Origin: Synechococcus sp. M44_DOE_062
GTDB taxonomy: Bacteria > Cyanobacteriota > Cyanobacteriia > Thermostichales > Thermostichaceae
DNA: 64,000 nt
Assembly (NCBI GenBank): GCA_015295985.1
Contig: DVDX01000017.1
Location: 1-64,000, forward strand
Direction of reading: 5' to 3'
Position 1 is the stretch's first letter; the number at the start of each line of letters is the position of its first letter. Shown piece by piece: positions 71 to 43,477 of this stretch. Below the pieces are notes generated by a model, which saw only the letters and a list, made by a program, of their open reading frames with translations, was not told where the DNA came from and did no database searches. The position numbers and the translations under genes are program-made.

Positions 71-742
71 ATGTTCTACTTGCCGGTCTCGCTGCTGCTG
101 TTCTTGGTGCTGTTGCTGCTGCTGCCCCTGATTTGGTTGGGGTTGGCGGTGGATGTGGTAGCGCTGGCAGTGGGGAAGTTGGGCTTTTCCCGAGATGGGG
201 CGTTGTTGTTGCTCTTGGCAGTGCTTGTGGGCAGCTCGGTCAACATTCCCCTCTATCGAGTGAAATGTGAGGTGACGCTGGTAGAGGACTTAGCCAGCCT
301 GTGGATGCGGCAACTCTGGGGGATCCCTTTGGCGAAAATCCCTCAGGAGACGGTGATTGCCTTGAACGTGGGCGGGGGGCTGATCCCGGTGCTCTTGGCC
401 CTGTACCAATTTGGGCGGGCCGACAGCCTGCTGATCCTGGCGGTAACGGCGTTGGTAACCTTGGTCAGCTACTATGCTTCCCACGTGGTGCCGGGGATCG
501 GCATTCAAATGAACCCCCTAGTTGCCCCGGCTACAGCAGCCTTAGCTGCTCTATTTTGGGCGGGGGATCAGGCACCGGCAGTGGCCTTTGCCGGCGGGGT
601 TTTGGGCACGGTGATCGGGGCAGATCTCCTGCACCTACCGGAAGTCCTGCGGCGCAATTGCTCCGGCATTCTCAGCATTGGTGGGGCTGGGGTTTTCGAT
701 GGCATTGCCCTCTGCGGCCTGTTTGCCCTACTGCTGAGCTAA
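71..742 (+). CDS. DUF1614 family integral membrane protein
   Basis: A 223-residue, very hydrophobic protein of the DUF1614 family, whose biochemical role is not established. A Leu-rich N-terminal segment (about residues 1-34) is followed by a second hydrophobic stretch with the family-typical G-S-S-V-N-I-P-L block near residues 54-61. Several further membrane segments run to the C-terminus. A purine-rich stretch (AGAAGGGA) lies 10-15 bases before the ATG. The gene converges on the caspase-like gene and overlaps its stop by four bases. Family assignment is from sequence pattern; no function is inferred. Confidence 0.8.
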   Translation: MFYLPVSLLLFLVLLLLLPLIWLGLAVDVVALAVGKLGFSRDGALLLLLAVLVGSSVNIPLYRVKCEVTLVEDLASLWMRQLWGIPLAKIPQETVIALNVGGGLIPVLLALYQFGRADSLLILAVTALVTLVSYYASHVVPGIGIQMNPLVAPATAALAALFWAGDQAPAVAFAGGVLGTVIGADLLHLPEVLRRNCSGILSIGGAGVFDGIALCGLFALLLS

Positions 743-2841
743 ACCAGGAGATAGGTGAGGGAAAGTGTGAGGGACTGGCTGGGATCCAGCCAACGCAGGT
801 CGGGATCCCCCTCAGGGGCACGCTGCGTCAACTCCTCCAGGAGCGTTTGCGTCCATTCCAGCGGCCCATTGAGTAACATCGGCGAACGGGCTACCCCCAG
901 CCTGCGGGCCATAGCCTTGAGGGCTGCCAAGCTGGCCGACAGGGGGCGGGTGCTGGCCACAAACAACAGCTCCGTCAGTCCTTGGGCATGACAGGTGAGC
1001 AAGTCAGAGCTCACAGCAGAGCGCAGCTCCCCATCGACTTCCGGCAAGGGTGGCAAAGTTAAACTGCCCTTGGCTTCCAGGCGAAGGGGTGTGGCCAAGT
1101 TGTCCTGAGGCATAGGGGCAAGCAGGTGCAGTTGCCCGGTCGGGTCGATCAGCAACAGGTAGCCGAACAGATCCTGCTCGCTGTTGTTGCGAAGGGTGAG
1201 ATGCAAGGGATCCCCCCGCATAAACCGTTGCATACCCACCTCAGTAGGAGCAGAGGCTACAGGCTGGACAAGGCGTGCCGCCAACGGGGGAGCTTTGGCA
1301 GCTTTACCTTTGACGGCCAACTCCGCCACCACTGCCAAGGAAGAAGAAAACCCATTGAGAGTGGTGCGCAAACGTTTGGCAGCCAGCAGATGAGCAAGAC
1401 GGGGAGCTAACCGCTGGACAGCCATCGCTGCCGCTTCTCCTGCCGGGCCACAGGAATTCAGAAGCAATTCTCGCCCTGGCCAGAACAGGCTGTAGCTGTT
1501 CACTTCCAGGGGTTTGAGCAGGGTATCCGAGCGAAAAGCAGCAGCCATTTCCGGGGTGATGCGGCCCAACAAACAGTCCACCTGTCGCTCGCGGGGGTTG
1601 GCCGTTTCCATCCAGCTATAGCCGGCAATGGCATTGGTGAGATCCACCTTTTCGATGCGGCCCAGGTTCTCTTCTAGGCCAACCGAAAGCTTGAGCGTGC
1701 TGGAGAGGCTGCGCAACTGCTCCCGCAAGGGTGTGCCCACAGGGGGAAACTGTCCTTCCGGGCTGGCCAACTGAGCCTGAGCCAACAGCCCACTTCGAGA
1801 GCGCATCAGCAGCGGCGTCGGTGAAGAGGCGGAAGGATTGGCGGGAATGGGAACCAAGAGGGTGCCCGGCTGCAAACCACACAGCGCCGCCGACGGGATC
1901 CCACCCAACCACACTTGAGCCCGATTCCCCTTCACTTCTTGGACCACCCCACTGACTCCTGCCTGCGCAGGCGCAAGAAAATAGGGGTGAATGTGTCGGG
2001 CAGTGTCTTTGCCTTCCAAGGTAGGGCGTTGGCAGGCAAATAGGCCCAGCTCTCGCTGGCTGGCCACTTGGTTAAAGGCCACCAGCAGACGGGTGGCAGG
2101 CGTAGTTTCCCATAGGTACTGCGTCAGCAGATAGGTGAGTACCCCGGCATAGAATCCCGGCCAAGCGGCTTCCGCTGCCAAGTCTTGGGGAGTGGTGGCC
2201 GAAATCAACAAGCCCTTGGGTGGAGACGGCCAAACCCGCTGCAGTTCCGAGGAGTCTGGGATCGCGGCTGGGGGGCGGGAACGCAGTTGCAAGTTGCCTC
2301 GCACCGACGGTGAGACATGGGTAAAGCCACAGTCCAGAAGGGTGGTGACCTGGGCAGTGCCCAAGCCTTCTACAAGCCGGAAAAAACTGTCCAGCTCCAT
2401 CGCCGCCATCCCCTCAGAGCCAGACAACAGCAGCACCGGCTGCCAGCAGTTGGGCGCGGATCCCAGCCGCCACTGGCCATAGCCGCTGAAGTGTACCACC
2501 ACCGTTTCAGCCGTGTGCCCTTGACCCCCCAAGTGCTCTGCAAAGGCCGATTGGATCCCACTTGATGTGGCTGCCCCATCGGTGAGGGTGAGAATATCTG
2601 CCGGGTCAAAGCCAAAGCGGTACAGGAGCAGCTCCCGCTGCAGCTCCACATCTGTCAAACACCCTTGTAGTGCGGATCCCTCGCCCAGGTAGCGGTTAAT
2701 GCCGATCAAAACAGCCAGCTTGCGAGAGCCAGCCGCCAACGCTTGCCCATATCGCTCAGCGCGACCCCTCAACCAGCCAGGGGACAGGCCAAGACCGGCA
2801 GCAACCAGGATCAGTTTTTGCAGAAAAGACCGCCTTTCCAT
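739..2841 (-). CDS. Tat-exported caspase-fold (orthocaspase-like) protein with DUF4384-type C-terminal domain, catalytic dyad missing
   Basis: A 700-residue protein. It begins with a twin-arginine signal (RRSFLQK at residues 3-9, then a hydrophobic core), so export by Tat is likely. A caspase p20-like domain follows: KLAVLIGINRY at 41-51, HFSGYG at 117-122 and LLDCGFTH at 168-175. Active orthocaspases have His in the S-G-H-G motif and Cys in D-x-C-H-S-G. Here these positions are Tyr121 and Gly172, so peptidase activity is unlikely. The C-terminal third (RGDPLHLTLRN, then YLLLIDPTGQLHLL) resembles DUF4384. Cyanobacteria are known to carry caspase homologues with substituted dyads, so a scaffold or regulatory role is possible. 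Convergent with the DUF1614 gene. Confidence 0.8.
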   Translation of the reverse strand: MERRSFLQKLILVAAGLGLSPGWLRGRAERYGQALAAGSRKLAVLIGINRYLGEGSALQGCLTDVELQRELLLYRFGFDPADILTLTDGAATSSGIQSAFAEHLGGQGHTAETVVVHFSGYGQWRLGSAPNCWQPVLLLSGSEGMAAMELDSFFRLVEGLGTAQVTTLLDCGFTHVSPSVRGNLQLRSRPPAAIPDSSELQRVWPSPPKGLLISATTPQDLAAEAAWPGFYAGVLTYLLTQYLWETTPATRLLVAFNQVASQRELGLFACQRPTLEGKDTARHIHPYFLAPAQAGVSGVVQEVKGNRAQVWLGGIPSAALCGLQPGTLLVPIPANPSASSPTPLLMRSRSGLLAQAQLASPEGQFPPVGTPLREQLRSLSSTLKLSVGLEENLGRIEKVDLTNAIAGYSWMETANPRERQVDCLLGRITPEMAAAFRSDTLLKPLEVNSYSLFWPGRELLLNSCGPAGEAAAMAVQRLAPRLAHLLAAKRLRTTLNGFSSSLAVVAELAVKGKAAKAPPLAARLVQPVASAPTEVGMQRFMRGDPLHLTLRNNSEQDLFGYLLLIDPTGQLHLLAPMPQDNLATPLRLEAKGSLTLPPLPEVDGELRSAVSSDLLTCHAQGLTELLFVASTRPLSASLAALKAMARRLGVARSPMLLNGPLEWTQTLLEELTQRAPEGDPDLRWLDPSQSLTLSLTYLLV

Positions 2842-3119: not shown

Positions 3120-3998
3120 TCAGCGGTTCAGGAAATAGGGCAAGCAAGCCCCACGCTCCGGCCAGTGGAAGCGGACGAAGGGAACCAAAACGAACCCAGC
3201 CATCGCCAGACAGAACAGGCCGAAGTAGAGGTGGAAAACCCCAATTGGATTGGCTGGTTCCACGCTTCCTCCGCCCAGGGATCCCAGTGCTAAAGCCAGG
3301 AGATTGTTCAAAGCATGAGCCAAGACGGGCAGGGTCAGGGAGCGGGTCTGCAGGTAGAACAGGCCCATCACCAAGCCAAACACCGTCAGTCCGACTGGGT
3401 TGGGGTGCAGCAGGCCGAATACTGCAGAAGAAGCCAGTAGTCCTCTGGAGAGGCCCCACTTGAGGCCCCAGCGGTGTAGCAAGATGCCGCGAAACAGCCA
3501 CTCCTCCGTTACGGGGGCCACCACCCCAATCGAGAGCCAGCGCAACCCCTGATACACCTGCGGCCAGGCCATTTCCCCATCCTCTTCCCCCAGTGAGTGC
3601 AGCATCGACTCCGCCAGCTCCGGTGCAGGCAGGGATACCAGGTAGAGCATCAACAGAGTGGTGCCCAGAGAGAGCACCAGCAAAGCCGGCACCACCCGCA
3701 GCAGGGATCCCCAGGGAATAGCAGCCCGCCAGTTGCCCCACAGCCGTCTCATCTGCAGATGGGCCTGCTGCCCCCGTCGCCAGCTCCAGATACAGGTGAG
3801 GACAAAGGTGGAGCAGTAGACCAGGTAGTCCAGCAGTGAATCATCCCATGGGAGATGCAACAGCTGGGCCAAGACGGCGGCTCCCAAACCCACACCCAGG
3901 TTGATCAACAAGAAGGCCAACAGCAGGTGGCGCGCCTTAAGGGCTCCAAATCCAGTCGCACTCGGCTCGGCAGGCCGTAGAGGGGGAGATCCAGACAC
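3120..3998 (-). CDS. CPBP family (CAAX-type) intramembrane metalloprotease
   Basis: A 292-residue polytopic membrane protein. The C-terminal half has the CPBP/Abi signature: E-E-W-L-F-R-G (the EExxxR motif), then FGLLHPN, then PVLAHALNN with the second His motif. These residues form the active site in Rce1-type intramembrane proteases. About eight hydrophobic segments are visible. Cyanobacterial members are numerous and their substrates are mostly unknown. The gene stands alone, transcribed away from the ABC1 kinase gene. Confidence 0.88.
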   Translation of the reverse strand: MSGSPPLRPAEPSATGFGALKARHLLLAFLLINLGVGLGAAVLAQLLHLPWDDSLLDYLVYCSTFVLTCIWSWRRGQQAHLQMRRLWGNWRAAIPWGSLLRVVPALLVLSLGTTLLMLYLVSLPAPELAESMLHSLGEEDGEMAWPQVYQGLRWLSIGVVAPVTEEWLFRGILLHRWGLKWGLSRGLLASSAVFGLLHPNPVGLTVFGLVMGLFYLQTRSLTLPVLAHALNNLLALALGSLGGGSVEPANPIGVFHLYFGLFCLAMAGFVLVPFVRFHWPERGACLPYFLNR

Positions 3999-4208: not shown

Positions 4209-6137
4209 ATGGGCGCAACACCGTCAACACCGGCAGTGATAACAGTGGCAACGCAGCATAGCTTGGGTTCTGTGGCTGTGTCCATCCCTCCGGCAGAGCT
4301 GAGGGCGGTTCCTGAGCCAAGCCTGCGTTACGACCCAGAGCAGTTGGCCAAGCAATATCGAGGGCGCTGGGATCTGGTGGTGCGGCGCCTGTTTCAGTTG
4401 ATCACCCCCTTTTTGGGCTTGTTGGCCTGGGTGTTTTGGGATCGCTGGCGGGGAGTAGAACTGAAGAATCGCCCCAAACACGCAGCCCGGCTGCGGGAGA
4501 TCCTCACGGAATTGGGGCCAACAGCCATCAAAATCGGCCAAGCCCTCTCCACCCGTCCTGATCTGGTTTCGCCCCTATTTTTAGAGGAACTGGCCAAACT
4601 GCAGGATGAACTGCCCCCCTTCGAGAATGCCATTGCTTTTGCCCTCATCGAGTCGGAGATCGGCAAACCCATAGACAAAATCTTTCGAGAAATCAGCCCT
4701 GAGCCGATTGCTGCTGCCAGCTTGGGGCAAGTGTACCAAGCCTACTTGCATACCGGGGAGAAAGTCGCCGTCAAGGTGCAGCGGCCCGATTTGATTGGGC
4801 GCATCTCTCTCGACATGTACATTGTCCGCAGCTTGGCGCTGTGGGCCAAAAAAACCTTCCGCCGCATCCGCAGCGACCTGGTGGGCATCGTCGATGAGTT
4901 CGCCGGGCGCCTTTACGAAGAGATGGACTACACCCAAGAAGGCCGCAATGCCGAGCGGTTCCTGGCGCTGTACCGTCACCCCTCCATCTATGCCCCGAAA
5001 ATCTACTGGGAGTACACCCGCACCAAGGTGCTGACGATGGAGTGGATTGATGGCATCAAGCTGACTCAGGTCGACAAAATCACTGCTGCAGGGCTGGATG
5101 GGCGGCACCTGATCGAGATTGGTGTCAATTGCTCCCTTAAGCAGCTCCTGGAAAATGGCTTTTTCCACGCCGACCCCCACCCAGGGAACCTCTTGGCGAT
5201 GCCAGATGGACGGCTGGCCTATATCGATTTCGGCATGATGAGCACCATCGCCCCCCAGCAGCGCTACGGCCTGATCAAGGCGATTGTGCATTTGGTGAAC
5301 CGAGACTTCGCCGGGCTGGCCCAAGACTACGTGGACTTGGAGTTCCTGGATCCAGATACCGACCTGACTCCCATCATCCCTGCTCTGGAAGCTGTCTTTG
5401 CCGAAGCGATGGGCAAATCCGTCTCCGAACTCAATTTCAAGAGCATCACCGATCGACTCTCGGGGGTGATGTACGATTTTCCCTTCCGAGTCCCTGCCTA
5501 CTACGCCCTGATCATCCGCTCTTTGCTCACCCTAGAAGGGATTGCCATTGGCCTGGATCCCAACTTTAAGGTGTTGAGCGTGGCCTATCCCTACGTGGCT
5601 CAGCGGCTGCTCACCGACCCAGCCCCGGAGCTGCGCGTATCCTTGCGGGAGCTGCTGTTTAACCAGGGGCAATTTCGCTGGAATCGCCTGGAGAACCTGC
5701 TGCGCAACGCCGTCAACAGCGAGGATTTTGACCTGCAGGGATCCCTGGAAAAAGCCGCTGATTTTATCTTTTCTGAGCGGGGTACTTTCCTGCGGGAGCG
5801 CTTGGTGGATGTGCTCTTCTCCAGCTCGGGATCCCAGGGTGGCTCAGATGGCTTGGCTCATTTGCAACGTCTGTGGGAACTCCTCAGCAGCAACCCGAGC
5901 TTTCAGCCGCTGCAGCTTTTGCCTATTGTTGCCAAGGTGGCTGCCAAACCGGAAGCTCAACAACTGAGCCGTCAATTGGCCTCCCGCTGGTTGCAACGCT
6001 CGGTAGCCCGCCTCATCCGCGACCTGCTGTTGCCGGATGCAGAAGAGCCCAGTTCACCCTCTTCCCTCAACGGGCGTGGCGGGATCCCTGGGCCAACAAC
6101 CTCTGCTGCTACTGCTCGACTTCCTCTTCCGGCCTAG
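4209..6137 (+). CDS. ABC1/UbiB-family atypical protein kinase
   Basis: A 642-residue member of the ABC1 (ADCK/UbiB/AarF) family. Diagnostic motifs are the KxGQ extension motif (AIKIGQALSTRPD), the Ala-rich loop replacing the P-loop (AAASLGQVYQA), the VAIK-type lysine in KVAVKVQRP, the catalytic HADPHPGNLL and the metal-binding YIDFGMM. The family supports quinone biosynthesis (UbiB) or plastoglobule/thylakoid lipid metabolism in plants; cyanobacteria have several paralogues. The long C-terminal helical tail is typical of them. The ATG at 4209 follows a spacer without a clear SD. No operon partner is evident, so the exact substrate is unknown. Confidence 0.92.
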   Translation: MGATPSTPAVITVATQHSLGSVAVSIPPAELRAVPEPSLRYDPEQLAKQYRGRWDLVVRRLFQLITPFLGLLAWVFWDRWRGVELKNRPKHAARLREILTELGPTAIKIGQALSTRPDLVSPLFLEELAKLQDELPPFENAIAFALIESEIGKPIDKIFREISPEPIAAASLGQVYQAYLHTGEKVAVKVQRPDLIGRISLDMYIVRSLALWAKKTFRRIRSDLVGIVDEFAGRLYEEMDYTQEGRNAERFLALYRHPSIYAPKIYWEYTRTKVLTMEWIDGIKLTQVDKITAAGLDGRHLIEIGVNCSLKQLLENGFFHADPHPGNLLAMPDGRLAYIDFGMMSTIAPQQRYGLIKAIVHLVNRDFAGLAQDYVDLEFLDPDTDLTPIIPALEAVFAEAMGKSVSELNFKSITDRLSGVMYDFPFRVPAYYALIIRSLLTLEGIAIGLDPNFKVLSVAYPYVAQRLLTDPAPELRVSLRELLFNQGQFRWNRLENLLRNAVNSEDFDLQGSLEKAADFIFSERGTFLRERLVDVLFSSSGSQGGSDGLAHLQRLWELLSSNPSFQPLQLLPIVAKVAAKPEAQQLSRQLASRWLQRSVARLIRDLLLPDAEEPSSPSSLNGRGGIPGPTTSAATARLPLPA

Positions 6138-43181: not shown

Positions 43182-43477
43182 GCCTTGCTTCGGCGCTGTA
43201 GCGGGTTGGAAGAGTTTAAGTGGGTGAGTTTGGAGGAGGATCCCGACAGAGCGTCTTTCCCCAGTCGAATAGCAAGCCGAAGACAGCAGGTGCCCACAGG
43301 CTTAATCTCCTGCCGAGGTTTGAGCGAAGTTCAAAGGGATCCCTTCTTGGATCGCTTTTGAAGGTGCGCTTATCTCAATGCGTCTCGGCTATGGCTGGGA
43401 CGCATTCTGTTTGGTAGAACCCAGATTCACCACCTGTTCAGCCCTGGGTGACCATTGACAACAAAGGAGGTGAGTGC
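43182..43477 (+). promoter_or_regulatory. rplA-rplJ intergenic leader (L10 leader region)
   Basis: Nearly 300 bases lacking a gene precede rplJ, the usual position of the L10-L12 autoregulatory leader. It contains a perfect 8-bp inverted repeat, AATGCGTC / GACGCATT (43377-43384 and 43399-43406), with a 14-base loop, and a strong SD, GGAGGTGA, just before the rplJ ATG. Binding of L10(L12)4 to this RNA is inferred from other bacteria. Confidence 0.55.
43377..43406 (+). promoter_or_regulatory. Stem-loop in the rplJ leader
   Basis: Stem AATGCGTC / GACGCATT, perfect over 8 bp. There is no T-run after it, so it is more likely a protein-binding or attenuator helper hairpin than a simple terminator. 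Confidence 0.6.

Follow-up and report, generated by a model that had tools for sequence, protein, structure and literature searches.

The window, the whole 64,000-nucleotide stretch of DNA analysed here, carries a gene for a pseudo-orthocaspase, a known kind of protein in cyanobacteria, and its sequence suggests that the product is most likely a non-proteolytic, exported binding protein that would keep a pocket for basic side chains. The fold, the missing catalytic dyad, the twin-arginine (RR) pair of a putative signal, purifying selection and the retention of acid columns that form the P1 pocket of related Arg/Lys-specific enzymes are all supported by the data. We are confident that the protein is catalytically dead and functional, while its putative mode of binding, through a pocket for basic side chains, we consider evenly balanced on the residues retained; for the statement as a whole, that of an exported, dead and pocket-binding pseudo-orthocaspase, we estimate a probability of about 0.6.

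The counts given below refer to 110 aligned rows, comprising the window protein, 29 loci that were the best matches of a 59-genome search, and 80 named loci, the top 80 among 548 confirmed ones. Neither set is a random sample, some genomes contribute more than one row, and L032 and L111, whose contigs are as long as those of L007 and L013 respectively, are taken to be the same genes as these, such that two genes were probably counted twice. Locus L009 (G006:C154) was left out of alignment A1 because two separate ORFs, of 485 and 297 aa, make up its orthocaspase gene, which reflects either a real break or an assembly error. The features of the gene are as follows.

739..2841, minus strand: pseudo-orthocaspase gene with Tat-type signal, 700 aa (ATG at 2841, stop codon 739–741)
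2734..2841, minus strand: twin-arginine-type signal, residues 1–36 (MERRSFLQK ... A-L-A), with RR in 110/110 rows; type and end at A36 assigned by eye
1966..2724, minus strand: caspase-fold domain, residues 40–292 (Pfam C14; VIA-align to Arabidopsis metacaspase 4)
2650..2652, minus strand: Asp64, which we take to be the TbMC2 Asp95 column; 110/110 rows
2479..2481, minus strand: Tyr121, in the catalytic His column (intact-dyad relatives and PDB profile alignment)
2332..2334, minus strand: Asp170, which we take to be the TbMC2 Asp211 column, two before the catalytic Cys; 110/110 rows, in line with the Asp in the DSC motif of Yca1
2329..2331, minus strand: Cys171, one residue ahead of the catalytic column; Cys in 15/110 rows and in 9/9 rows of the window's order
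2326..2328, minus strand: Gly172, in the catalytic Cys column (intact-dyad relatives and PDB profile alignment)
2170..2172, minus strand: Glu224, an acid in the column that holds the QTSADA Asp of metacaspases; Glu in 88/90 dyad-less rows, Asp in 20/20 intact rows
742..1965, minus strand: C-terminal region, residues 293–700, from the structure model, with a DUF4384-like part at about 543–632 (DUF4384 sub-threshold in the window protein)

Residues 40–259 match the Pfam profile Peptidase_C14 over profile positions 1–207 of 233 (E 1.2e-8; 35.4 bits, the cut-off being 21.4). The full-length protein was also modelled (pLDDT 85.6, pTM 0.88), and by VIA-align this structure model matches Arabidopsis metacaspase 4 (6w8r) over residues 40–292 (Z 25.3, rmsd 3.0, 232 aligned); model and match together place the domain in the caspase-hemoglobinase fold. 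The profile and model matches thus bear out the caspase fold claimed by an earlier, sequence-only reading of this DNA. No NCBIfam family matched the window protein at E <= 1. A search of the window's genome (90 contigs, completeness 100) with PF00656 gave a single match, the window gene itself, and therefore no intact-dyad paralogue was found there. Arabidopsis metacaspases 4 and 9 and yeast Yca1 share the caspase fold, and their active-site and acid columns align with those of the window protein. These three are active proteases, and to our knowledge they have neither a Tat signal nor the C-terminal module of the window protein.

The motif HFSGYGQ of the window protein contains Tyr121 and the motif LLDCGF contains Cys171 and Gly172; in relatives that share this layout and have an intact dyad, the matching columns hold HFSGHGS and LDSCHSGG. 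When the profile of a 65-row alignment (A2) was run against PDB sequences, the catalytic residues of yeast Yca1 (4f6o, with 4f6p as the C276A mutant) fell in columns 121 (His) and 172 (Cys), the Asp of its DSC motif, two before the Cys, at D170, and the Asp of QTSADA in column 224. The His-Cys dyad of an active orthocaspase is therefore replaced by Tyr121 and Gly172, as had been proposed from the sequence, and the window gene falls under the definition of pseudo-orthocaspases in PMC6426788, that of a p20 domain with a substituted dyad. Structure prediction, which had been suggested as a means of placing Tyr121, Cys171 and Gly172, yielded the model that matches metacaspase 4, and this match together with the alignments puts Tyr121 and Gly172 at the dyad positions; the earlier description of Cys171 as off by one residue also held, column 171 preceding the catalytic Cys in the PDB profile alignment. 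The protein would be expected to have no peptidase activity, since neither dyad residue is present, and its reading as a pseudo-protease is backed by alignment, model and literature alike.

A peptidase that remained active with a shifted nucleophile, Cys171 paired with a nearby His, would suit the retention of Cys171, there always followed by Gly172, in 9/9 rows of the window's order, and two genus mates (L005, L006) do combine His at 121 with Cys171. However, column 171 holds the residue ahead of the catalytic Cys, and three intact-dyad proteins (L058, L066, L074) have a Cys in each of columns 171 and 172, which argues that column 171 is not catalytic. Nor is a partner apparent, as the window protein lacks His at 121, His117 is replaced by Gln in three genus mates (L003, L004, L007), and His175 is not conserved, being Tyr in three genus mates. 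His103 is conserved in 108/110 rows, but these include 20/20 intact-dyad rows, and we therefore take this residue, which lies in helix 93–105 of the model, to be structural. Given the register of the alignment, and with no suitable His apart from His103, we judge a shifted dyad to be extremely improbable.

Relatives of the window protein were found in 53/59 genomes at E <= 1e-5, its own included, the closest (in genome G004) being 94% identical, and among 388 genomes of the class with completeness >= 90 the family profile matched 286, again counting the window's own, at E <= 1e-20. The survey of the family for the same substitutions, also proposed earlier, found Tyr-Gly in 23 of the 110 rows, while 90 rows lack the His-Cys dyad and 20 retain it (80 of the rows being the best 80 of 548). 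The remaining forms are Tyr-Ser in 44 rows, Leu-Ser in 5, His-Gly, Leu-Gly and Phe-Ser in 4 each, Cys-Ser in 3, and Lys-Ser, Phe-Gly and Tyr-Cys in one each. Tyr occupies position 121 in 68/90 dyad-less rows, and position 172 holds Ser in 57/90 and Gly in 32/90 of them, with entropies at the 40th and 32nd percentile, respectively, of positions 40–259. Drift at these two positions is thus limited, given how common Tyr and Ser/Gly are there; they are more variable than their invariant neighbours, but not free. His at 121 occurs in two of five genus mates (L005, L006), its codon CAT being one base from the Tyr codon TAT. Locus L024 (G008) also reads Tyr-Gly. The single Tyr-Cys form, L072 (TVLDTCYTYS), lies within the dyad-less clade and has Cys in the nucleophile column and Tyr in the His column. 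Intact-dyad cyanobacterial orthocaspases, for which L012, L016 and L054 serve as examples, align with the window protein over nearly their full length, including the RR signal, C14 and the C-terminal region; L054, which combines all three with an intact dyad, comes from a record titled Gloeobacterales (MAG ES-bin-313).

Ten residues are identical in 110/110 rows (L58, G60, D64, S119, G120, G122, D170, R187, G233, W244), and column 224 is acidic throughout, the two dyad-less rows in which it is not Glu (L027, L028) both being His-Gly forms. We equate D64 and D170 with Asp95 and Asp211 of TbMC2 via the motifs GC-x-x-D and D-x-C, the TbMC2 numbering being presumed. Asp95 and Asp211 are the pocket acids of TbMC2, and the conservation of both in pseudo-forms has already been reported (PMC6426788); the accessible part of that paper contains no mention of the Asp-to-Glu change at 224. 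A tree of 105 rows was built with a quick method from which columns 121, 171, 172 and 224 and rows L032, L111, L086, L090 and L106 were left out, and was rooted at the midpoint for drawing, with warnings for joined long branches (L020, L031) and for rows of odd composition. All 20 intact-dyad rows fall on one side of a single branch with support 100. The fewest changes required on this tree are 12 at position 121, 9 at 172 and 2 at 224, and because column 224 changes so rarely it marks the clade and does not count as separate evidence that it co-evolved with the dyad.

The Tat signal proposed in the sequence-only reading is favoured by the RR pair, which is unchanged in every row (80 of them the best 80 of 548), and by a TatC match of 218.6 bits in the window's genome, which thus encodes the TatC component of a Tat translocase; by eye, the MERRSFLQK start, a hydrophobic stretch and A-L-A at 34–36 are of Tat type. 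However, the Pfam TAT_signal profile passes in 3/65 rows of A2 and fails for the window protein. The protein would fold in the cytoplasm and then probably be exported by the Tat route to the periplasm or thylakoid lumen. The DUF4384-type domain of the earlier reading is likewise sub-threshold in the window protein itself (residues 543–599, 14.2 bits against 27, E 0.048; 15.4 bits for the C-terminal part alone), but DUF4384 matches 52/58 rows of the C-terminal region at E <= 1 and 53/65 rows of A2 at E <= 0.01, and kinship with DUF4384 is likely because of the latter. DUF4384 is present in some pseudo-forms (PMC8283722, PMC7475262). Modelled alone, residues 293–700 gave pLDDT 88.7 and pTM 0.89, and no Foldseek match in the PDB was found for this module at E <= 0.001. 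Among the folds listed for residues 293–378 there are weak barrel-like matches, to SIR2/HerA and to F1-type ATPases, the best with Z 8.9 over 77 residues; they were set aside as near the level of a common arrangement.

A DUF1614 gene at 71–742 converges on the pseudo-orthocaspase gene, the two ORFs sharing 4 bases, and this neighbour is kept in 5/5 genus-mate stretches. Upstream of the pseudo-orthocaspase gene lie a gene for an Rce1-like protease (3120–3998, minus strand) and one for an ABC1 kinase (4209–6137, plus strand). Between positions 1 and 4300 there are 2 promoter-like sites (0.9 expected) and 3 terminator-like sites (4.4 expected). Elsewhere in the window, positions 43259–43418 match the ribosomal protein L10 leader (RF00557, 70.6 bits), an expected regulatory RNA.

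Among the named loci, the best 80 of 548, 45 of the 62 that are dyad-less have an ATP sulfurylase gene on the same strand, less than 700 bases upstream; of the other dyad-less loci in this set, one has the gene at 1949 bases, 14 are testable and lack it, and two have less than 1.5 kb of upstream sequence. In the same set, no ATP sulfurylase neighbour was found at any of the 18 loci with an intact dyad (13 are testable), and these orthocaspases thus differ from the dyad-less proteins in this respect as well as in having His-Cys and Asp at 224. The identity of the ATP sulfurylase was set in L033 by NCBIfam NF003166 and TIGR00339, and the 46 tblastn matches to it are 70–100% identical, one of them spanning fewer than 150 of 331 query residues. 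Fisher's test on the testable loci gives p 3e-7, which overstates the evidence because the loci share ancestry. In 19 of these best 80 of 548 loci a gene for MnmA (tRNA 2-thiouridine synthase), identified in L033 (L033:560–1612), lies further upstream on the same strand. The window's lineage is without the ATP sulfurylase link: neither the window nor any of seven stretches of 18 kb (L112–L118) gave a tblastn match, and the genome's own ATP sulfurylase gene is on contig C66, not C64. ATP-sulfurylase has already been mentioned in cyanobacterial metacaspase operons (PMC3501461), and sulfate adenylyltransferase adjoins one Nodularia gene (PMC4933709); the portions of these two papers that were available do not tie it to the dyad-less clade.

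A broader history, which we put forward as a doubtful proposal, is that the pseudo-orthocaspases form one old clade in which the dyad was lost once, with Asp changing to Glu at the pocket acid on the p10 side, and whose members evolved into exported receptors that bind basic peptides or termini, tied to sulfate assimilation in most lineages through a transcription unit with ATP sulfurylase. The single loss presupposes that an intact dyad was the ancestral state.

The Tyr-Gly family is already in print, apparently with a close orthologue included. The available text of PMC6426788, which defines pseudo-orthocaspases and suggests a role in photosynthesis, lists Tyr-Gly in its Table 1 for Synechococcus JA-2-3B'a (WP_011432265.1), PCC 6312, Synechocystis 6803, 6714 and 7509; these proteins share phylum and dyad substitution with the window protein, which comes from another genome. 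The same paper lists Synechococcus PCC 7336 as Tyr-Ser, discusses a Tat-like N-terminus for a Tyr-Ser form and states that most unicellular cyanobacteria have no orthocaspases other than pseudo-orthocaspases; JA-2-3B'a is described as having pseudo-forms only (PMC8283722). By description, the window protein resembles SyOC (sll0148) of Synechocystis PCC 6803, both being Tyr-Gly forms and each the sole orthocaspase of its genome, with a knockout phenotype known for SyOC, and also, among eukaryotes, the Trypanosoma brucei Tyr-Ser pseudo-metacaspase TbMC4 (PMC6426788), which has lost the dyad and is still functional. The main text of a spatial proteomics paper (PMC12341915), in the part available, contains neither 'caspase' nor 'peptidase C14'.

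Whole-gene dN/dS against five genus mates is 0.117–0.156 (Nei-Gojobori), and the window protein is maintained under purifying selection; for the same five mates dN/dS is 0.070–0.228 in the caspase domain and 0.140–0.159 in the C-terminal region, all of these values being rough because synonymous divergence reaches 1.1, and in the caspase domain 1.6. The similar constraint on the C-terminal region, together with the repeated changes of the dyad positions on the tree, would suit a caspase domain that is a structural relic with an idle former active site, function residing in the C-terminal module. However, the caspase domain has the lower value in four of the five comparisons (0.070–0.119), the exception being that against L004 (0.228 against 0.143), and all 110 rows retain an acid at each of positions 64, 170 and 224; we therefore consider a relic unlikely. 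A different kind of function, regulation of a pro-death pathway or of the stress response independently of peptide binding, is suggested by work on SyOC, the deletion of which raises tolerance to H2O2 and for which the authors propose a pro-death pathway (PMC7889975). The knockout grew as wild type without stress, though, and SyOC is the protein of another species, and we doubt that this accounts for the window protein. The lost dyad fits the earlier view that the protein is no death protease, but for SyOC a pro-death pathway has been proposed. We favour a non-proteolytic exported protein that may still bind basic side chains or peptides through its pocket, as the retention of the acids suggests, and that may have a binding, scaffold or regulatory role in the response to stress at the envelope or thylakoid, a further contact perhaps coming from the C-terminal module. 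This reading is favoured by the contrast between the varying dyad columns and their neighbours S119, G120, G122 and D170, invariant in 110/110 rows, and by the altered H2O2 tolerance of the SyOC deletion (PMC7889975); against it, D64 and D170 may be kept for folding.

The observation made on the window is correct but not new, both it and its reading being in print for the family, and the window gene is an ordinary member to which the details of pocket and gene neighbours are modest additions. The kept pocket acids, the Asp-to-Glu marker and the ATP sulfurylase neighbour, which among the best 80 of 548 loci is seen only beside dyad-less genes, provide testable handles on the role of pseudo-orthocaspases.
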